Below, piece after piece: positions 1 through 42,003 of a stretch of DNA of 64,000 nt (positions are counted from its first letter, which is position 1; each line of letters starts with the position of its first letter). Made by a program: the position numbers and the translations under genes. The stretch comes from Aquisphaera giovannonii. GTDB taxonomy: Bacteria; Planctomycetota; Planctomycetia; Isosphaerales; Isosphaeraceae. The DNA lies in NCBI RefSeq assembly GCF_008087625.1, contig NZ_CP042997.1, positions 4,092,001 to 4,156,000 of the forward strand, in the 5' to 3' direction. The notes under the pieces were generated by a model. It was not told where the DNA came from, ran no database searches, and saw only the letters and a list, made by a program, of their open reading frames with translations.

Positions 1-2813
1 GACGGCCAGGCGACTTCCACGGCCTCGATCCGGGCATCCGCGCCGAGGCCGAAGTGGATGCGGGGGTCGGAGGCGGACTGGTAGCTGCCGCCTCCGGTGC
101 GCCAGGCGACTCGGTTCCCGCCGGGACGGATCAGCGTCACCTTCGCCCCGACGGCGTCTCGATTGGACTTCGAGCCTTCCAGGCGAAGCACCAGGAAGTG
201 GCCGCCGGCCGTCCGGTTGTGGAAGTAGGCCAGCGGCTGATCGTGCGAGAGGATCAGCACGTCCTGACGCCCGTCGTTGTCCAGGTCGCCCACCGCGAGT
301 CCCCGCCCCATCCGCGGCACTTGCCAGACGGCGCCGGCGTGTCCGGAGGCATCTAGCAATCGGCCATCATCCCCGTTCAGCAGGAGCTGGGCCGGCATCA
401 GGTACGGATAGTTGGGCCGCAGGTCGTTGACGTGCCCGTTGGCCGTGGCCATGTCCATTCGGCCGTCGTTGTTCGCGTCGAACAGGCCCAGCCCGAACCC
501 GAGGAGGCGGCGGCTCGCGACGTCCAGCCCGATCGAGGCGGTGGCGTCGGTGAAGAGGCCGCCGCCCAGGTTGCGGAAGAAGGAGGTCGACTCGCCGTAG
601 AAGTTGGTGACGGCCAGGTCGATGAGCCCGTCCGCATCGATGTCGCCGGCAGCGGCGCCCATGCCGGCCTGGTAGATCCCCGAGGCGTTGCTGGCCACGC
701 CGGCGAGGTGGCCGACCTCCTCGAACCGCATCCCGCCCAGGTTGCGGAACAGGAAGTTGGCCGAGGAGTCGTTGGCGACGAACAGGTCCACCAGGCCGTC
801 TCCGTCCAGGTCGGCCGCGACCACGCCCAGCCCGCGGCCGTCGCGGTCGATGATGCCGGACTCGGCCGACACGTCGACGAACTTGCCGCCGTCGTTGCGA
901 AAGAGGCGGTCGGGGAGCGACTCGGCGTCGAGCGGGTTGCAGTTGAGGTAGGCCCCGGTCTTGGCGTCGCGGCAGATCCGGGGATGGTCCAGGTCCCAGG
1001 CCGCGTAGTGGCAGACGTAGAGGTCCAGGTCGCCGTCGTTGTCCAGGTCGGCGAAGGCCGCGGACGTCGGCCAGTCGCGGCGTCCGCCGAGGCCCCAGCG
1101 ATCGGTGGCGTCCTGGAAGCGACAGCCGCCGAGGTTCCTGTACAGGGCGTAGGACCGCCATCGCGTGACGAGCAGGTCGGGCAGGCCGTCGTTGTCCACG
1201 TCTCCCACCGCAACGCCGTGCCCGTGGCCGCGGGGGGAGGGGCCGATCCCGGACCGTCCCGTGATGTCTTCGAAGCTCCCGTCTCCTCGATTGCGGAACA
1301 GCCGGTCCCCCGCGTCGGAGGGCGGGGTTGCCCCCGGATCGGCCGCGTAGGGGCCGCCCTGGACGCAGTAGACGTCGAGCCACCCGTCGCCGTCGACGTC
1401 GAGCACCGCCAGGCCGCCGCCGAAGGGCTCCGGGAGCTGGCGGAGGGGCGTCCCGGCATTGTCGTAGACGAAGCGGAGGCCTGCCGACTCGGCCTCATCG
1501 GCGAAGGCTGGCCGGCCGTCGGTCGCACGGCCGGGCCCGCTCGGCCGGCCAGGCGCGTGCGTGGCCTCGGGTTCCAGCGCGTGGGCCGCTAGCTCAAGGG
1601 CCCATCGCCGGGCCGAATCGTCGCGATCGAGCCGGGCGAGGCCCTCCCGGGCGGCCGGGGCGCCCGGCGAGGCCTTCAGGGCCCAGGCGAAGAGCGCGCG
1701 GGCCTCGTGCCGGAGGCCCGCCTCCTCCGCCAGCCGGGCGAGCGCGGCCCGCTCGGCCGGCGTGCGCGGGGGCTCCTCGCGCCAGAGGAGGAGGCGATAC
1801 GCCGCCATCGCCCGCTCGACGTCGCCCTGGCGCCGCCGTAGCTCCGCGACGCGTCCCGGGCGGCCGGCCCGGTGGGCCAGCTCGACCAGCCGCTCCATCG
1901 CCCGGATCGCCCCGGGCTCGAGCGCCAGCCAGGCTTCCGTCGCGGCGGCCTCCGCCTCGGCGTCGCCGCCCCGCCGGGCGAGCCAGGCGCGCAGCTCGAG
2001 CCTCGCGGCGGGCTCGAGCGCCCCCGCGCCGAGATGTCCGGCGGCCTCGATCGCATCGGCCGGTCGCGACGAGCCCCGCGCCCATTCCAGTTGGGCCCGC
2101 CAGACCGGGGCATCGGCCCCGGCGTGCCGGCACTTCCGCAGCCATCCGTCCGCCTCGTCCCAGCGGCCGGCCTCCAGGGCGAGGCGGGCCTTTCCCAGCC
2201 AGACCCGGGCGTCATCCGGCGCGGCCGCGCCGGCCGTCTCGAGCGCCCCCTTGAGGCCCTCGTACGGCAGGCGGCTCAGGTCGAGGTTGCTGAGGTCCCT
2301 CAGGTCCGACAGGGGGTCATCCGCGGCGGCCAGCCGGCCTCGGACGAGGGCCTTGACGTCGCCGAACCGGGCCTCCAGCTCGTAGACCCGCCGGAGGAGG
2401 TCCCGGATCTTCTCCCGGGCCGGGCCGTCTTGTTCGAGGGCCTCCTCGAGCCGACGCTCCGCGGGATGGAGCCGGCCCCGGGCCAGGTTCGCCTTCGCCT
2501 CGTGGTAGGCGCCGACCGCGTCGAACGCGAACCCCGGCGGCACGCGGTCGAACGCGCGGGCCGCGGCGTCCGGATGGCCGTCGAGCGACTCGCAGATCCC
2601 CAGCCAGTAATCGGCCGCGCCGTCGAGCGAGCCGGCTCGCGCCGAGAGGGTCGCGAGCCGCCGACGCGCCGCGTCGAATCGGCCTCGCCCGATCTCCCGC
2701 CGGGCGAGGTCGAGCTGCTCGCCAGATCGCCGGGCATCGAGCCGCGTGAAGGCGACCCAGGCGAGGGCCAGAAGCCCCGCCGCGATCGCGAGCCGTCGCC
2801 GTCGTCGCCGCAT
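1..2813 (-). CDS. TPR / FG-GAP (VCBS) / ASPIC-UnbV protein, CRTAC1-like, 3' end outside window
   Basis: The frame is open from an ATG at 2813 to the window edge, so the C-terminus is missing. The protein has an Arg-rich N-terminus and one membrane segment (residues about 8-20, LAIAAGLLALAWVAF), so it is probably exported and anchored. Residues about 25-420 are Ala/Leu/Arg-rich helical pairs typical of degenerate TPRs. From about 436 there are FG-GAP/VCBS repeats with calcium-loop cores such as DVDGDGWLDVY, DVDNDGLPDLL and DLDNDGDLDLY. From about 838 there is an ASPIC/UnbV domain (LRLEGSKSNRDAVGAKVTL, SGSYQS-like GGGSYQSASDPRIHFGLG). Proteins of this architecture are abundant in planctomycetes as secreted beta-propellers of unknown ligand. 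An in-frame ATG at 2825 is an alternative start; neither has a strong ribosome-binding site. It lies about 160 bp downstream of the DUF1559 gene on the same strand. Confidence 0.85.
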   Translation of the reverse strand, partial: MRRRRRRLAIAAGLLALAWVAFTRLDARRSGEQLDLARREIGRGRFDAARRRLATLSARAGSLDGAADYWLGICESLDGHPDAAARAFDRVPPGFAFDAVGAYHEAKANLARGRLHPAERRLEEALEQDGPAREKIRDLLRRVYELEARFGDVKALVRGRLAAADDPLSDLRDLSNLDLSRLPYEGLKGALETAGAAAPDDARVWLGKARLALEAGRWDEADGWLRKCRHAGADAPVWRAQLEWARGSSRPADAIEAAGHLGAGALEPAARLELRAWLARRGGDAEAEAAATEAWLALEPGAIRAMERLVELAHRAGRPGRVAELRRRQGDVERAMAAYRLLLWREEPPRTPAERAALARLAEEAGLRHEARALFAWALKASPGAPAAREGLARLDRDDSARRWALELAAHALEPEATHAPGRPSGPGRATDGRPAFADEAESAGLRFVYDNAGTPLRQLPEPFGGGLAVLDVDGDGWLDVYCVQGGPYAADPGATPPSDAGDRLFRNRGDGSFEDITGRSGIGPSPRGHGHGVAVGDVDNDGLPDLLVTRWRSYALYRNLGGCRFQDATDRWGLGGRRDWPTSAAFADLDNDGDLDLYVCHYAAWDLDHPRICRDAKTGAYLNCNPLDAESLPDRLFRNDGGKFVDVSAESGIIDRDGRGLGVVAADLDGDGLVDLFVANDSSANFLFRNLGGMRFEEVGHLAGVASNASGIYQAGMGAAAGDIDADGLIDLAVTNFYGESTSFFRNLGGGLFTDATASIGLDVASRRLLGFGLGLFDANNDGRMDMATANGHVNDLRPNYPYLMPAQLLLNGDDGRLLDASGHAGAVWQVPRMGRGLAVGDLDNDGRQDVLILSHDQPLAYFHNRTAGGHFLVLRLEGSKSNRDAVGAKVTLIRPGGNRVAWRTGGGSYQSASDPRIHFGLGADARIEAVEVAWP

Positions 2814-20868: not shown

Positions 20869-28041
<7,173 letters not shown>

Positions 28042-30506: not shown

Positions 30507-30537
30507 CGCGGGCCGGCCTCAGGCGAGCCGGCCCGCG
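30507..30537. terminator. bidirectional hairpin terminator
   Basis: An 11-bp perfect inverted repeat, CGCGGGCCGGC and GCCGGCCCGCG, with a 9-nt loop lies between convergent genes ending at 30485 (plus) and 30519 (minus). It overlaps the last codons of the minus-strand gene. There is no T-run, as is common in high-GC genomes. Confidence 0.6.
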
Positions 30538-31403
30538 TCGTCCCCCTCGTGCCGCGAGACGAGGTCCGTCGCCGGCAGCGAGAGGTGTGGCTTCAGCAGC
30601 GGCCCGACGTTGGGCGGCGGCCCGAGCGGCGAGGCCGCCTCGATCCCGTCCCGGTCCCGCTCCACCTCCTCGAGGATCGGGCCGCCGAGCGCCGCCTCGA
30701 TGTCCCCGAGGCGGCGGGCGATGTACGCCCCGTCGAGCACGCGATGGTCGTAGATCAGCTTCACCACGACCTTCCCCGTCGCGCGGTCGATCGGCCCGAA
30801 GGTGAGCGTCGTGGTGAGCGGGGAGATCGGGTGCATGTTCTCCGCCCCGAGGTTCCCGTACGTGGACAGGCCGAAGGTGCCGAACCGCTTGCAACGCTTG
30901 TAGCCGGACGCGTTGAGCGTGGCCCACCAGAAGGCCCGCCGCACCGGCGTGGGCACGCGGCTGAACCGCAGGGCCTGGCGGTAGAAGCCGATCTTCTCCA
31001 GGGACTCGTTCTTGTACCAGAGAAGCGCGTCCATGATCTGGACGAGGCTCTGCCGCTCCGGCGCCCGGAAGATGCCGACGAACACGCCCTCCTCCCCCTG
31101 GTACAGCCGCTCGATGGCGAGCGCGCAGTTCATCCAGGGGTGTTCATAGAGCCGCGGCCACGGGAACTCCAGGAGGCAGCGCCTCAGCGGCGGGTTCGCC
31201 GCGCCCACCAGCGCGTAGGCCTTCATGAAGAGGCAGGCCCAGGACGGCCGGCGAGGATGCCGGGCCCGCGGCCCCATCAGGGCCGAGACGTCGATGGTCC
31301 GGCTCACCGGCGCCGAGGGGACCTTGTGTGCGAAGTGCACCAGGTCGCCGATGAACCGGCGCGGCCCGGTGAGCGAAAGATAGCGCCCCTTCGGCTCTAG
31401 CAT
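30519..31403 (-). CDS. stand-alone E2-like acyltransferase (2-oxoacid dehydrogenase acyltransferase fold)
   Basis: A 294-residue protein with the CAT/E2 acyltransferase fold. The C-terminal signature YDHRVLDGAYIARRL (His220, Asp224) matches the H-x-x-x-D-G active site, and FGTFGLSTYGNLGAENMHPI resembles the FTISN-type block of E2 subunits. There is no lipoyl or E1-binding domain, and no dehydrogenase genes are nearby, so it is not an ordinary pyruvate dehydrogenase component. The family includes proteins that acylate small molecules or lipids from CoA donors. ATG 31403 is assigned from the start of protein-like sequence; the ribosome-binding site is unclear. It is divergent from the repeat-protein gene. 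Confidence 0.75.
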   Translation of the reverse strand: MLEPKGRYLSLTGPRRFIGDLVHFAHKVPSAPVSRTIDVSALMGPRARHPRRPSWACLFMKAYALVGAANPPLRRCLLEFPWPRLYEHPWMNCALAIERLYQGEEGVFVGIFRAPERQSLVQIMDALLWYKNESLEKIGFYRQALRFSRVPTPVRRAFWWATLNASGYKRCKRFGTFGLSTYGNLGAENMHPISPLTTTLTFGPIDRATGKVVVKLIYDHRVLDGAYIARRLGDIEAALGGPILEEVERDRDGIEAASPLGPPPNVGPLLKPHLSLPATDLVSRHEGDDAGRLA

Positions 31404-31743
31404 CCCTGCGCCTCGCGGTGGGACGGCCGTGGCCCGGGCGGGCCGTCCTGGCCCGCCGCCGGGAGCCCCGTGCCGTCGGCCGTGAGACTACTGCAAAGGC
31501 CGGGAAGAGGGAAGCCGAAGCTCCCCCGGCCAGCCCGCGCCTTTGGCACGACGGTTGCAATGAGGACCATCATTCCTACCCGGGATCGCCCGAAAGGGAC
31601 GCCCGGAAAGGCCATGCGTCCCCGGGATCCGCCCGGGGGAGTCACTTCGTCGGGAAAAATTCGACGGGATGGCGGTACTCTCTCCCTCCCCGGGATGTCA
31701 TGTGTGGGGGGAGACGAGCATCCTCGATATGGGAGGGATTCAC
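31404..31743. other. divergent intergenic region with a sigma-54 promoter
   Basis: A 340-bp region between divergent genes. It contains the sigma-54 promoter listed separately, followed by a leader of about 170 nt that includes a GC-rich palindromic stretch (ccccgggatccgcccggggg, 31620-31640). No small gene is supported. Confidence 0.5.
31544..31560 (+). promoter_or_regulatory. near-consensus sigma-54 (RpoN) promoter
   Basis: TGGCACG-ACGG-TTGCAA on the plus strand matches the sigma-54 consensus TGGCACG-N4-TTGCW, including the invariant GG and GC ten bases apart. It points toward the repeat-protein gene starting at 31744. Transcription would begin near 31570, leaving a long leader. Sigma-54 promoters need an AAA+ activator; none is encoded in the window. 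Confidence 0.75.
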
Positions 31744-32412
31744 GTGGCAGGCACCATCGCGACCAGCGGCTGCAATCTCCGAGATTCCTCGTACGTCGCC
31801 GAGCGTCGTGGCGAACGATCGGTCCGGAGTCGAGGCTTCCTCTCCTCGTTCTTCTCCTCCGACCAGGGCCGGAAGCGGCGCCACGTGACGGCCCCCGTCG
31901 TCGAGGCCTGCGAGGACCGGATCTCCCTCTCGGGCTTCCACGGCCATCACATCGTCGGGAACGCCGCGCTCCGCAGCAATAGCCTCGCGGTGACCGGGAA
32001 GGTCCAGAAGAATGCGGCCCGGCACCACAAGCAGGTCCCGGCCACCTCGGCGCTCAACGGCACGATGGTCGCCTTCGGCGGCGCCCCGGTCATCCAGACG
32101 GCCGCCGCCCCGGTGAAGCAGGTCCCGGCGACCTCCCAGCTCAACGGGACCATCATCGCCTACGGCGCAAGCCCGAACGTCCAGCCCGCCGTCGCAACGG
32201 CGCCCGCCAGCGATCCCGGCGCATCGTCCGCCCCGGTGAAGCAGGTCCCGGCGACCTCCCAGCTCAACGGCACGATCATCGCCTACTCGAACACCCCCAA
32301 CGGCCAGTCGGTCGCCCCGCCGACGACCGACCCGATCCAGGCCCCGGCGACGCAGCCCGTGCAGCAGACTCCCCCGCCCACGGTCCTGAACGGGACGATC
32401 ATCGCCTACTGA
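31744..32412 (+). CDS. protein with four C-terminal NGTIIAY repeats, unknown function
   Basis: A 222-residue protein with no recognised enzyme domain. The N-terminal half is basic and Ser-rich, with APVVEACEDRISLSGF, which resembles the planctomycete extracellular-protein motif LExRxxLS. From residue about 96 come four copies of a motif: KQVPATSALNGTMVAF, KQVPATSQLNGTIIAY (twice) and QQTPPPTVLNGTIIAY, separated by Pro/Ala/Thr-rich linkers; the last copy ends exactly at the stop. GTG 31744 is chosen because GGGAGGG lies 6 nt upstream; ATG 31729 is an alternative. A near-consensus sigma-54 promoter lies about 185 bp upstream. It may be a cell-surface or envelope protein; the repeat is not one I recognise. 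Confidence 0.7.
   Translation: MAGTIATSGCNLRDSSYVAERRGERSVRSRGFLSSFFSSDQGRKRRHVTAPVVEACEDRISLSGFHGHHIVGNAALRSNSLAVTGKVQKNAARHHKQVPATSALNGTMVAFGGAPVIQTAAAPVKQVPATSQLNGTIIAYGASPNVQPAVATAPASDPGASSAPVKQVPATSQLNGTIIAYSNTPNGQSVAPPTTDPIQAPATQPVQQTPPPTVLNGTIIAY
32029..32409 (+). repeat. four coding repeats (VPATSxLNGTIIAY)
   Basis: Copies begin at about 32029, 32116, 32239 and 32362, so spacing is 87, 123 and 123 bp. Copies two and three share nearly identical DNA over their 16 codons, differing only at third positions. The fourth is diverged and ends at the stop codon. Confidence 0.85.
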
Positions 32413-32440
32413 GCGAGGCCCCCTCGAACGGCCATGAGAC

Positions 32441-32484
32441 GGAGCCGGCCCCCTCGGCGTGACCTCGCCGGGTGCGCCGGCTCC
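32441..32484. terminator. nested hairpin between convergent genes
   Basis: Outer arms GGAGCCGGC (32441-32449) and GCCGGCTCC (32476-32484) are perfectly complementary, and inner arms CGGCG and CGCCG flank a 6-nt loop. It lies between the stop of the repeat-protein gene (32412) and the stop of the SGNH hydrolase gene (32491), so it could end transcription from both sides. Confidence 0.5.
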
Positions 32485-32490
32485 GGGCGT

Positions 32491-33185
32491 TCAGTCCGCC
32501 AGGAACGGCCGGACTCGATCGGCGAGCAGCCTGTATCCCTCCGGCGAGAAGTGCAGCCGATCCTCGACGAATAGCTCCGGCCGGGCCTGGCCATCGGGCC
32601 CGAGGGGGACGTCGAAGGCGTCCACGAAGGTGACGCGGGGCATCGACAGGGCCATCTCGCGGACCAGCCGGTTCAGCTCGCGGTTCTTGTCCGCCTGCCC
32701 CCATCGGACCGGGGCCGGGCTCGAGCCGATGAAGACGATCTCGGTTTTCGGCAGGCGCGACCGAATGACCCGGACGAAGTCGGCGAAGTCCCCGGCGACC
32801 AGCATCGGGATCTTGCCGGCGTTGATGTCATTGCCCCGGCCCGGAGGAAGATCTGCTTCGGCTCGTGGGGGAAGATCAGCCGATCGGCGAAGTGGGTCGC
32901 GTCCACGATCTCGGTGCCGCCGAAACCCCGGTTGATCACCTCGTGCCCGGGGAAGTCCTGCGCAAGCGTCTTCCAGAGTCGGATCGTGGACGACCCGATG
33001 AAGAGGCTCGCCCCCTTCGGCGGCGGGCTCTTGCGGTCGGCTTCTTCATAAGAGGCAACCTCCTTCTCCCACTTCGCGAAGTCGTGGGCGACGCCATGCT
33101 GCCCCGGCGGTTCCTGTCCCCGGACGCCGCCATGTGGCATGAGCCACGCAAGGACCGCGATCGCGGCCGTCAACCTTCTCGTCAT
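32491..33185 (-). pseudogene. secreted SGNH/GDSL-family hydrolase, broken by a frameshift near 32835
   Basis: From ATG 33185 the product starts with a signal peptide (MTRRLTAAIAVLAWLMPHGG) and the SGNH block I region ASLFIGSSTIRLW, where GSS carries the nucleophile. It continues through NRGFGGTEI to KQIFLRAG and then loses sense. The next frame continues with NDINAGKIPMLVAGDFADFV and ends DRLHFSPEGYRLLADRV, the C-terminal Asp/His block of the family. The expected junction is RAGDNDIN. The DNA reads GGGCCGGGGCAATGAC, so one missing base (probably A in GGGGACAAT) explains the break. If real, the gene is inactivated, because Ser and His/Asp are separated. Natural substrates of such lipases/esterases cannot be inferred. 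Confidence 0.75.
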
Positions 33186-33334
33186 CGGCGGTGATCCCAC
33201 CTGCCTCAAGCCGCGTCGCTCCCTGCGCCCTGATGCGCGGTCGCGGCCGGGGCTCGGAGGCGAGGCCCCATCCTACCGGGCCGCGGCCCAGCCTCAAAAG
33301 ACTTCGCGCGGGGCGCGAGCTACTGCCCTCCGGG

Positions 33335-34417
33335 TCATCCCCCGAACAGCCCCTTCCGCGCCGCCTTCTGGAGCGGGTTGGTGCCGTCGGGCATGCGGTC
33401 CCCGTGGACCTGCCAGAAGAAGACGCCGCGCAGCCCCTTCTCGCGGGCCCACTTCGCCTTGAGCTCGACGGACTCGGCGTCGTCGTAGCCGATCACGGCC
33501 TTGCGGTCGGGCGCGAGCAGCCACGGATTCTTGGTCTCGTCGTCCCAGACGCGCGTCCAGCCCTTCGCCGCCAGCTCGGCGAGGTTGCGGTACGAGCCGC
33601 CGGGCAGGCGGACTTTCGGCGCGCCCTTCGTGGAGGCGTAGGGCTCGGCGACCGGGAAGCCGCGGCCGTAGAGCGGGATGCCCAGCGCGATGCGGTCGGC
33701 CGGGACCTTGCGGTCGTTCAGCATGTACTCGACCGTCTGCGCGGTCGACCGCGGCCGGCCGGGCTGCTTCGACGAGGCGAACAGGGGGGACTGGTGGCCC
33801 GCGTACTCCGTCCAGTCGCCCGTGTAGTCGTAGGTCATGACGTTGATCCAGTCCATGGTCTCGACCAGGAACTCGGTCGAGAGCCACCGGATCGTCCCCG
33901 GATTGGAGGACATCGCCATGGTGATGAACATCCTCCGGCCCTTCTCCCTGCCGATGGCGTCCACCCCCGCGCGGAGCCTCCGCGTCAGCCGTTCGAAGCC
34001 CGGGACCTCCGCGTCGGCGTCCGGGTATTCCCAGTCGAGGTCGATGCCGTCATAGTCGTAGTCCCGGACCATCGCCAGGAGGTCCCCGACGTAGCGGTGC
34101 TCCGCCTCCTTGCTCGCGACGATCGCCGCGAACTGCTTGTCCCAGCCCCATCCGCCCGCGGAGACCAGGACCTTGACGCCGGCCGCGTGCGCCTGCGTCG
34201 TCAGCTCGCGACTGGGGACGTTCCGCGAGGGCCTCAGCTTGCCGTCGCCGTCGGCCGTCGCGAAGGCGTGGCAGAGGTGCGTGTAGAGCTTGTAGTCGAT
34301 GTCGCGCACCGGGCCGAACAGGTAGCCGACGAAGACCTTGTCGGATCCGCCGGCCTTCGGCGCGTCCCCGGATTGCGCCGGGAGCAGGGCCGCCATCATC
34401 ACGATTACAGATGTCAT
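33335..34417 (-). CDS. glycoside hydrolase family 18 (chitinase-like) secreted protein
   Basis: A 360-residue secreted enzyme. A short signal peptide (MTSVIVMMAALLPAQS) precedes one GH18 TIM barrel. The catalytic strand reads DYDGIDLDWEYP, the DxxDxDxE motif with Glu130 as proton donor. VKVLVSAGGWGWD is the SxGG strand, and MTYDYTGDW and FFWQVHGD match the later barrel strands. These enzymes hydrolyse chitin or other N-acetylglucosamine-containing polymers; no chitin-binding domain is present. ATG 34417 has GGAGG 8 nt upstream. It is divergent from crcB. The N-terminus is 80 residues longer in the open frame, but only the chosen start gives a signal peptide. Confidence 0.9.
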   Translation of the reverse strand: MTSVIVMMAALLPAQSGDAPKAGGSDKVFVGYLFGPVRDIDYKLYTHLCHAFATADGDGKLRPSRNVPSRELTTQAHAAGVKVLVSAGGWGWDKQFAAIVASKEAEHRYVGDLLAMVRDYDYDGIDLDWEYPDADAEVPGFERLTRRLRAGVDAIGREKGRRMFITMAMSSNPGTIRWLSTEFLVETMDWINVMTYDYTGDWTEYAGHQSPLFASSKQPGRPRSTAQTVEYMLNDRKVPADRIALGIPLYGRGFPVAEPYASTKGAPKVRLPGGSYRNLAELAAKGWTRVWDDETKNPWLLAPDRKAVIGYDDAESVELKAKWAREKGLRGVFFWQVHGDRMPDGTNPLQKAARKGLFGG

Positions 34418-34537
34418 GATACAATCCTCCAACCTCGCGACCGATCGGGCCAGGCGGCGATTGTAAGCTCGTCGCATCCCGGGCGACAGCCCGGCGCGGG
34501 CGGCTCGGCTGTTGACGGCGGCGCCCCGGGAGGAACA

Positions 34538-35128
34538 ATGGGTCGTCGAGACGTCGACGTCGGGAGGTGTTTCGTGGAGTTCCTGGTACGGGTCTCGGTG
34601 CTCTCGCTGGGCGGAATCCTGGGCGTCAACGCCCGCTATTGGCTGGGCGTCCTGATCAGCCGGTGGGCGGCCTCCCACTGGGCGACCATGGCCATCAACG
34701 TCAGCGGGTCGTTCGCCATCGGGTTCCTGTCGATGGCCCTGGCCCGGTGGCTGCCTCATCCCCACGCCAGGCTGGCGATCCTGACGGGGTTCCTGGGCGG
34801 CTACACGACGTTCTCCACGTTCGCGTTCGAATCGGTGACCCTCTGGGAGCGCGGCGAGCCCGCCACGGCGATGGCGAACGTCGCCGGCAGCGTGGTCCTG
34901 GGCGTCCTGGCCGCGTTCCTGGGCATCGTCCTGGCCCGGGACGTCCTGATCGCCGCGGCGGGCTCGCCCACGGCCGGGATGAGCCCGGCGAAGGTCACCA
35001 TCCCGACCGAGGAGCTTCGGCTCGCGATGCAGACCGAGGGCTCCCCCGATCTGGAGCTGCCGCCCGACATCCTCGCGAACGGGATGGGTGTCGACGCGGC
35101 CGAGGAGGCCGAGGGCCGCCGTGCCTAG
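34538..35128 (+). CDS. crcB: CrcB/Fluc fluoride channel with C-terminal extension
   Basis: A 196-residue protein. The four-helix Fluc core is clear: SLGGILGVNARYWLG, the pore Asn in MAINVSGSFAIGF, GFLGGYTTFSTFAFE with the TFSTF Phe-box, and a last helix GSVVLGVLAAFLGIVLA. As a dimer it exports fluoride. The core is followed by a hydrophilic tail of about 50 residues that is not part of the usual family length (about 125). Start: ATG 34538 has GGGAGG 4 nt upstream; GTG 34574 has GGGAGG 6 nt upstream and begins right at the channel domain. Both are plausible. The next gene encodes DUF190 domains, a common neighbour of crcB. No fluoride riboswitch was found upstream. Confidence 0.92.
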   Translation: MGRRDVDVGRCFVEFLVRVSVLSLGGILGVNARYWLGVLISRWAASHWATMAINVSGSFAIGFLSMALARWLPHPHARLAILTGFLGGYTTFSTFAFESVTLWERGEPATAMANVAGSVVLGVLAAFLGIVLARDVLIAAAGSPTAGMSPAKVTIPTEELRLAMQTEGSPDLELPPDILANGMGVDAAEEAEGRRA

Positions 35129-35144
35129 GAGGGAGGGATTCCCG

Positions 35145-35879
35145 ATGATCCCCTCGGATGCCGCCCGCCTGAGCCTGCACGTGAACGCGAGCCGCCGGTG
35201 GCGCGGCAAGCCCACCTATCGCGCCGTCGTCGAGGCCGCCCGGTCGCTCGAGCTCGCGGGGGCCTCGGTCTTCCTGGTCGACCTCAGCTTCGGGGCCGAG
35301 CGGACGCTCCGCGACGCCCTGAGCGAATATGCCTCCCTCGACATCCCCGTCGTCGTCGAGGTCGTCGACGGCCCCGGCCGCATCGACGCCCTCCTCCGCG
35401 AGCTCGACTCGATGGCGCCGGGCGGCCTGGCCGTCGTCGAGCCGGTCCGCGTCGTCGCCTATTCCCACCACGCGAACGCCGGAGGCCCCCGCCGGGCGGC
35501 GGCCCCTCCCGCGACCCAACGAGGGATCCCATCAATGTCGCTCGACGGCAAGGCGAGGCGCGTCACGGTCTACATCGGCAACGCGGACACCTGGAACGGC
35601 CGGAATCTGGCCGCGGCGATCGTCCTCCGCTGCCGCGAGCTCGGCCTGGCGGGCGCCACGGCCAGCCTGGGCGTGATGGGGTTCGGCCGCCACTCCATCA
35701 TCCATCGAGCCAGCTTCCTCGGGCTCTCCTCGGACGTGCCGGAGAAGGTGGAGATCGTGGACCGGCCGGAGCGGATCGCGGAGGTCCTGCCGGTCCTGGA
35801 GGAGATGGTCGACGGCGGCCTGATCGTCGTCCAGGACGTCCGGGTGGTCAAGCACGCGCACCATCCCGCGCCCGGCTGA
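35145..35879 (+). CDS. tandem DUF190 protein (fluoride-channel-associated)
   Basis: A 244-residue protein made of two DUF190 domains. Domain one (about residues 8-112) has LSLHVNASRRWRGKPTYRAV and VVVEVVDGPGRIDALL. Domain two (about 135-240) has VTVYIGNADTWNGRN, GVMGFGRHSIIHRASFLGL and VEIVDRPERIAEVLPVLEEM. Single DUF190 proteins of about 110 residues, often beside crcB, are small ferredoxin-like-fold proteins of unconfirmed function; the duplicated form is unusual. Domain one lacks the Gly-rich GxxGFG segment present in domain two. ATG 35145 has a strong AGGAGGGAGG upstream and lies 16 bp after crcB, so the two form an operon. A regulatory or accessory role in fluoride export is inferred. 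Confidence 0.85.
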   Translation: MIPSDAARLSLHVNASRRWRGKPTYRAVVEAARSLELAGASVFLVDLSFGAERTLRDALSEYASLDIPVVVEVVDGPGRIDALLRELDSMAPGGLAVVEPVRVVAYSHHANAGGPRRAAAPPATQRGIPSMSLDGKARRVTVYIGNADTWNGRNLAAAIVLRCRELGLAGATASLGVMGFGRHSIIHRASFLGLSSDVPEKVEIVDRPERIAEVLPVLEEMVDGGLIVVQDVRVVKHAHHPAPG

Positions 35880-35982
35880 CCCCTCCGCGAGAGTCGGGGC
35901 GGAGGCTTCCTCGCGGGCGCCGGGCTGTGCGATAATCGGGGGCGTAACCTGCGACAACCGGAGGACATTCGTCGGAGTGGCC

Positions 35983-36768
35983 ATGGTCTTCGTTCATTCG
36001 CTCCCGGGCCTGATCCCGCGGGGGGCCCTTCGCGGGGGGATCGCCGTGGTGATCGACGTCCTCCGCGCCTCGACGATGATCGTCCACGCCCTGGCCGCCG
36101 GGTGCCGGGAGGTCATCCCCTGCGGGGAGATCGAGGAGGCGAGGGCGGCGGCCGCGGCGATGCCGCCGGGGACGGCGATCCTGGCCGGGGAGCGCCACGG
36201 CGTGCCGATCCCGGGCTTCGACCTGGGGAACTCGCCCGGCCAGTGCACGGCGGAGGCCTGCGAAGGCCGGGCCATGATCATCACGACGACCAACGGCACG
36301 CGGGCGATCCTCGCCTCGCTGGAGGCCGAGCCGGTGGTCGTCGGCTCGTTCGTCAACTTCGCCGCCACGGCGCAGCGGCTGCTCCACGAGGAGAAGCCCA
36401 TCCACGTGGTCTGCGCCGGGACCGAGGGCTCCATCAGCTACGAGGATACCCTCCTGGCCGGCGCCTTCGCGCGGCACTTCAAGGACCTGGGCCACCCGAT
36501 GGGCAACGACGAGGCGGAGATCGCCGCGGGGCTCTGGGCCCGCGTCGAGGAGTCCATCTGGGCCGGCGGCGAGACGGACCGCTCCCGCCCCCGGCACGGC
36601 GGGGAGGAGCCCCTGGTCCGCTACCTGACCCGGGGACAGGGGGGCCGCCGCGTGGTAGAGTTGGGGCTCGCGGCGGACATCGCGGACGCGGCCCGCCTGA
36701 ACCGCCCCGGCTTCCAGGTCGTGGCCGAGCTGCGGCGCGACCCGCTGCGGATCGTCGCCAGGGCGTGA
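35983..36768 (+). CDS. comB: 2-phosphosulfolactate phosphatase family protein (ComB)
   Basis: A 261-residue protein of the ComB family, typical length. Conserved blocks are GIAVVIDVLRASTMIVHAL, ILAGERHGVPIPGFDLGNSP, TTTNGTRAIL and CAGTEGSISYEDTLLAG. In methanogens ComB removes phosphate from 2-phosphosulfolactate in coenzyme M synthesis; in bacteria it may serve sulfolactate metabolism. No other sulfolactate gene is nearby, so the actual substrate here is uncertain. ATG 35983 is preferred over the in-frame GTG 35977 because GGAG lies about 5 nt before it. It is followed by glycyl-tRNA synthetase after 105 bp. Confidence 0.88.
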   Translation: MVFVHSLPGLIPRGALRGGIAVVIDVLRASTMIVHALAAGCREVIPCGEIEEARAAAAAMPPGTAILAGERHGVPIPGFDLGNSPGQCTAEACEGRAMIITTTNGTRAILASLEAEPVVVGSFVNFAATAQRLLHEEKPIHVVCAGTEGSISYEDTLLAGAFARHFKDLGHPMGNDEAEIAAGLWARVEESIWAGGETDRSRPRHGGEEPLVRYLTRGQGGRRVVELGLAADIADAARLNRPGFQVVAELRRDPLRIVARA

Positions 36769-41607: not shown

Positions 41608-42003
41608 GTGAGGCTCGCAGACGGTTCGCTTTCAGTCACGACATCCCTCCGGAGAGAAGGCCACAGGTCGCCAAGCAACTCCCGCGCCCGCGAGCATATC
41701 CCGGCCAATCCTCTCACACCTTAGGGAGCTGGCGTGGCTGATCGGTGCCTCCGGAATCCGATCCCCGGCGATTCATACCCGGTCCGTCCGACCAGTCGCG
41801 GAAACTCGCGAGCCTTCGCTCGAGCCGAGGCGGCTGATGGCGTCGGTCGTCGATATCTCGTCAGCGGCGTTGCCCGCACCGAAATCGCATCCCGGCATGG
41901 CCCTTCGTAGCGTCCGAAGGGCTCGCCAAGAATTGTTGCGACCCTGCTATGATGGCGGTACGGCCGCAGAAGGCCCGGACTAACCTCCCCGCGGAGCGTT
42001 CCC
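41608..42003. other. divergent intergenic region, no gene supported
   Basis: A 396-bp region between the divergent Rieske-fusion and rhomboid genes. A TATGAT hexamer at about 41947-41952, some 50 bp before the rhomboid start, could be a -10 element, but no matching -35 at normal distance was found. Open frames lack ribosome-binding sites. Confidence 0.4.

Follow-up and report, generated by a model that had tools for sequence, protein, structure and literature searches.

An exact-consensus sigma-54 promoter site predicted before an orphan repeat-protein gene of Aquisphaera giovannonii

In the stretch of DNA analysed here (64 kb, hereafter the window), two divergent genes, one on the minus strand with its start at 31403 and one on the plus strand with GTG at 31744, flank a gap that harbors a predicted sigma-54 promoter (Table 1). 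The plus-strand sequence TGGCACGACGGTTGCAA at 31544-31560, which includes the A following TTGCA, shows zero mismatches to the pattern TGGCACG-N4-TTGCW, with the GG at -24, the GC at -12, the correct spacing and the extended consensus all present. It is the sole match in the window even when one mismatch is allowed, against 0.19 expected from shuffled sequences, and no sigma-70-like promoter was found in the intergenic gap at 31404-31743. The preliminary description of this DNA had claimed a consensus match at all informative positions and a divergent intergenic placement aimed at the gene at 31744; both statements are borne out, by the exact TGGCACG-ACGG-TTGCA(A) sequence and by the starts of the two flanking genes.

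Table 1. Coordinates of the predicted features at the repeat-protein locus and at the CAP locus used for comparison
Feature	Position	Strand	Remarks
Divergent neighbour, 2-oxoacid dehydrogenase acyltransferase-like	30519..31403	-	conserved in family
Dyad GGCGGGCC-N5-GGCCCGCC	31437..31457	+	87 bp upstream of the sigma-54 site (dyad centre 98 bp)
Predicted sigma-54 promoter TGGCACGACGGTTGCA	31544..31559	+	exact consensus; exact-site class mostly intergenic and gene-directed (45 family genomes)
-24 element TGGCACG	31544-31550	+	exact match
Spacer ACGG			4 bp, between the -24 and -12 elements
-12 element TTGCA	31555-31559	+	exact match
Predicted 5' leader, ~174 nt	31570..31743	+	start inferred near 31570
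Shine-Dalgarno GGGAGG	31731..31736	+	7 bases before GTG 31744, read from sequence
Orphan repeat-protein gene, 222 aa	31744..32412	+	Arg-rich N-terminal part, degenerate leader, four NGTIIAY-type repeats, Pro/Ala-rich linkers
CEDRISLS codons	31909..31932	+	degenerate LExRxLLS / Planc_extracel leader motif
Repeat 1 KQVPATSALNGTMVAF	32029..32076	+	
Repeat 2 KQVPATSQLNGTIIAY	32116..32163	+	
Repeat 3 KQVPATSQLNGTIIAY	32239..32286	+	
Repeat 4 QQTPPPTVLNGTIIAY	32362..32409	+	C-terminus of the protein
CAP locus L210	sigma-54 site 1208-1223; CAP gene 1387-2499		orthologues L246, L248-L277

The Shine-Dalgarno sequence favours GTG 31744 as the best-supported start of the downstream gene. Since codon usage becomes gene-like only from about 31849, being weak before this point, GTG 31885 is kept as a less likely alternative. 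The encoded protein lacks a clean LExRxxLS motif, which corrects one detail of the preliminary description; its leader region reads VVEACEDRISLSG, in which C replaces the first L, giving CEDRISLS. This resembles the ...LEDRxLLSG form of the Planc_extracel leader (PF07595), presented as a planctomycete-specific cell-surface signal (Studholme et al. 2004, as cited in PMC8567305), but differs from it by the Cys in place of the first Leu and is not matched by the PF07595 profile even at E 10. A weak match to the same leader profile occurs elsewhere in the window, at 41816-41842, in a 123-aa frame. The four repeats of the protein are units of 16 residues that end in NGTIIAY or a close variant, and the protein itself ends in LNGTIIAY, with no match to the PEP-CTERM model TIGR02595 at E 10. 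Searches of Pfam and NCBIfam gave no meaningful match; a protein search found no relative in 39 other genomes, the NGTIIAY repeat was absent from the 44 other family genomes, and peptide patterns and tblastn detected the protein in none of 84,980 species genomes. Single-sequence structure prediction, of low confidence (pLDDT 41), placed one strand in each repeat. The protein is possibly located at the cell surface, and it may be exported, adhere or self-assemble.

The repeat gene and its promoter occupy a lineage-specific insert some 4.5 kb long, because in relatives the flanking blocks nearly abut and homology to the sister species (G002) reaches 31499 and then diverges. Genomes of other genera join the block that ends at 31416 almost directly to the one that starts at 35985-36001 (325 bp apart in genome G048). 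The G+C content of the insert (0.70) is like that of its surroundings, and a plasmid origin was considered and gave no match. The region 31420-35985 is a variable insertion spot, where the sister species has a different gene, and within it a minus-strand SGNH-hydrolase-like gene (32491-33209) is split over two frames near 32830, by a frameshift or a sequencing error. The window also carries, at 20869-28041 on the minus strand, a very long hybrid sensor kinase of 2390 aa with many near-identical HAMP-like repeats. The position of gene and site in this insert leaves the sigma-54 site with no phylogenetic footprint. Upstream of the orthologue of the divergent neighbour, no near-consensus sigma-54 site was detected in 29 other genomes, within the first 650 bp available (less upstream DNA in a few genomes). 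Support for the site comes from the class to which it belongs.

In the genome as a whole (10.53 Mb, three contigs), TGGCACG-N4-TTGCW occurs at six exact sites, compared with none for the reversed control pattern; with R instead of G the counts are six and one. All six exact sites are intergenic and are followed by a gene on the same strand. Besides the 222-aa repeat-protein gene at 31744, these genes encode a PEP-CTERM-like secreted protein (a weak, sub-threshold TIGR02595 match), a PtsP-like GAF/PEP-utiliser, a small lipoprotein-like protein, a CsbD-like protein and a glycosyltransferase. For three of the six (csbD, ptsP and the small lipoprotein gene), the corresponding gene of the sister genome G002 is likewise preceded by an exact site, and looser sigma-54 sites precede two Hsp20-like genes and one DnaK-like gene, named from sequence. 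The class was then surveyed in 45 genomes of the family, with most sites retrieved and genes called with codon models; the gene caller is simple and the intergenic statistics derive from the retrieved stretches, which makes the following figures approximate. Among 113 distinct exact sites, 103 lie outside called genes, compared with 28% of control positions, and 10 lie inside them, compared with 72% of nearby control positions; a same-strand start follows within 350 bp for 73 of the 113, against 10% of control positions. Assuming that chance sites behave like control positions, the 10 genic sites imply about 4 chance sites among the 103 intergenic ones (10 x 0.28/0.72), from which it is estimated that some 96% of the intergenic exact sites in the family are not due to chance, giving a site of this kind odds of about 96% of being under selection. 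An exact TGGCACG-N4-TTGCW lying between genes may thus be trusted as a likely sigma-54 promoter in Isosphaeraceae.

The machinery that such promoters depend on is encoded in the genome. The preliminary description had proposed that lack of an rpoN gene would count against the promoter; a single, full-length rpoN was found, encoding 504 aa and including the RpoN box ARRTVTKYR, so this earlier test was passed. The gene was also found in 21 of the 21 genomes included in a search of relatives. Fifteen strong PF00158 proteins, the bEBP activators, are encoded as well. The GC-rich dyad upstream of the site was considered as an activator site: it has three copies in the genome (31437-31457, G000:C1:5355752 and G000:C1:6286015), two of them located upstream of exact sigma-54 sites. 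The candidate was rejected, as the sister species lacks the dyad at its sigma-54-linked ptsP and has, in its orthologous gap, an imperfect form that no sigma-54 site accompanies; the dyad may instead be a hairpin or a terminator-type element.

The strong enrichment of the exact, intergenic, gene-directed class, together with the presence of rpoN and bEBP genes, argues with high confidence for a genuine, functional -24/-12 promoter at 31544-31559. Against this interpretation stand the missing phylogenetic footprint, the lack of the gene in every other genome searched, the failure to find an activator site, with the upstream element of the CAP gene (described below) also absent, the long leader and the slight uncertainty of the start codon. 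The first and third of these would suit a chance match, whose 12 specified bases would be a product of drift within the gap, left unused by the sigma-54 polymerase, and the control patterns do give about one match per genome. Nevertheless, with only 0-1 chance matches expected per 10.5 Mb, a site correctly oriented and at the correct distance from a gene, and the estimated non-chance share of its intergenic class, such an origin is improbable. It is more improbable still, to the point of being hardly credible, that the promoter is real and serves mainly a small RNA or leader transcript instead of the repeat-protein mRNA: the ~174 nt that separate the inferred start from the start codon and the weak codon usage at the 5' end of the gene would suit such a product, whereas no terminator precedes the gene in the leader (31570-31743), the leader folds no better than shuffled sequences (z -0.08) and matches no Rfam family, a good Shine-Dalgarno stands at 31731, and the CAP gene of the family, described below, routinely has its sigma-54 site about 178 bp before the start. 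The same folding and Rfam results rule out a riboswitch or structured leader.

The preliminary description had also proposed a scan for such sites upstream of other LExRxxLS genes. A general link between these genes and sigma-54 is not supported, except at one gene, where it is conserved across the family. The PF07595 profile yields 44 weak-to-strong leader matches in the genome, 28 of them readable, and only 1 of these 28 has, no more than 500 bp from the motif, a site with one mismatch or none, compared with about 0.4 expected by chance; general sigma-54 control of LExRxLLS genes is accordingly rejected. The single gene with a site encodes a CAP-domain (PF00188) protein bearing an LExRxLLS leader, with TGGCACGTCGGTTGCC 179 bp before its ATG. 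Orthologues were found in 41 of the 45 family genomes, and the sigma-54 site (GG and GC fixed, at most two mismatches) is present in all 28 that have readable upstream DNA, the genome under study included; in 24 of the 28 there is at most one mismatch, and the position is mostly about 178 bp before the ATG. The CAP gene of the sister genome shares both its leader and its upstream sigma-54 site with that of Aquisphaera insulae. In 21 of the 28 regions, two TTGTAA hexamers spaced by about 11 bases were detected, located about 178 bp upstream of the sigma-54 site. This TTGTAA-N11-TTGTAA element is a candidate activator site but could alternatively be an element of the divergent gene. In its 5' leader, the CAP gene has in addition a conserved element of the form TTTYNYTNAAGT, which lies about 63 bp past the first base of the sigma-54 site (loci L086, L087, L088, L186, L199, L203, L205 and L210).

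Like the LExRxLLS-CAP gene, the repeat gene is preceded by a sigma-54 site and a long leader and encodes a leader-like motif; it differs from the CAP gene in having no TTGTAA-N11-TTGTAA element, the TTGTAA pair being absent from the whole window. A derivation of the window promoter from that of the CAP gene was rejected, homology between the two being limited to the consensus. The pairing of sigma-54 with the repeat protein is nonetheless plausible, because sigma-54 appears to drive a conserved, secreted-type CAP protein with a similar leader. According to the proposed mechanism, sigma-54 RNA polymerase would bind 31544-31559 as a closed complex, and initiation would occur only once a bEBP, bound somewhere upstream and presumably answering a signal, hydrolyses ATP. 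Transcription is expected from about 31570, 12 bases past the -12 GC, yielding a transcript with a leader of about 174 nt from which the small repeat protein would be translated at 31744. This protein, which has a degenerate planctomycete leader motif, would probably be exported or surface-associated, and its gene would join a putative envelope and stress sigma-54 network that includes, in this family, the conserved LExRxLLS-leader CAP protein, DnaK, Hsp20, CsbD and PtsP.

The predicted promoter is a standard member of the sigma-54 class, a type already known. Like canonical -24/-12 promoters it has an exact TGGCACG-N4-TTGCW, lies between genes, points at a gene and occurs in a genome with rpoN and bEBP genes. 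Exterior proteins are well established as targets of sigma-54 (PMC3162934), examples being the PEP-CTERM genes linked to it in proteobacteria (Haft et al. 2006, PMC1569441) and an RpoN-dependent PEP-CTERM gene (PMC9850573). As in those systems, the site precedes a gene for a protein with a sorting or surface signal; here, however, a degenerate planctomycete leader at the N-terminus takes the place of a C-terminal PEP-CTERM, and the partner activator motif was not found. We put forward, tentatively and as a rather doubtful generalization, that Isosphaeraceae use sigma-54 to switch on exterior proteins that bear a leader. Almost all genomes would have an ancestral LExRxLLS-CAP protein of this kind, and in the present species the same sigma factor would have captured a beta-repeat surface protein of recent origin that possibly self-associates. 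If true, this would be the planctomycete equivalent of the sigma-54/PEP-CTERM surface circuit. What was a raw motif match has in any case become a testable promoter, and the repeat gene illustrates how an orphan gene may come under sigma-54. With its fixed promoter architecture and candidate activator site, the LExRxLLS-CAP gene offers an entry point to the sigma-54 signal of the phylum.

In the literature covered, which was incomplete, no report was found of the orphan gene or of an LExRxLLS leader tied to the CAP promoter. The view that sigma-54 is little studied in this phylum is not borne out as stated, since a 2025 comparative survey in PLoS One predicts, in the parts consulted, a Planctomycetia sigma-54 regulon of chaperones (DnaK, small Hsp), SCP/PR1 (CAP, COG2340) proteins, glycosyltransferases and lipoproteins (PMC12316311). 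The same kinds of genes are among the targets found here; the difference is that those parts of the survey mention neither Isosphaeraceae nor the orphan gene nor the LExRxLLS leader. CAP proteins form the largest class among the targets of exact sites in the family (13 of 83), followed by Hsp20 (7) and DnaK (6). Sigma-54 sites precede Hsp20 and DnaK genes at loci L017, L021, L022, L074, L075, L081, L145, L148, L159, L171, L178 and L179, in agreement with the published predictions for Planctomycetia chaperones. One relative has an exact sigma-54 site in front of an RpoN-like gene (L176), which suggests self-regulation.
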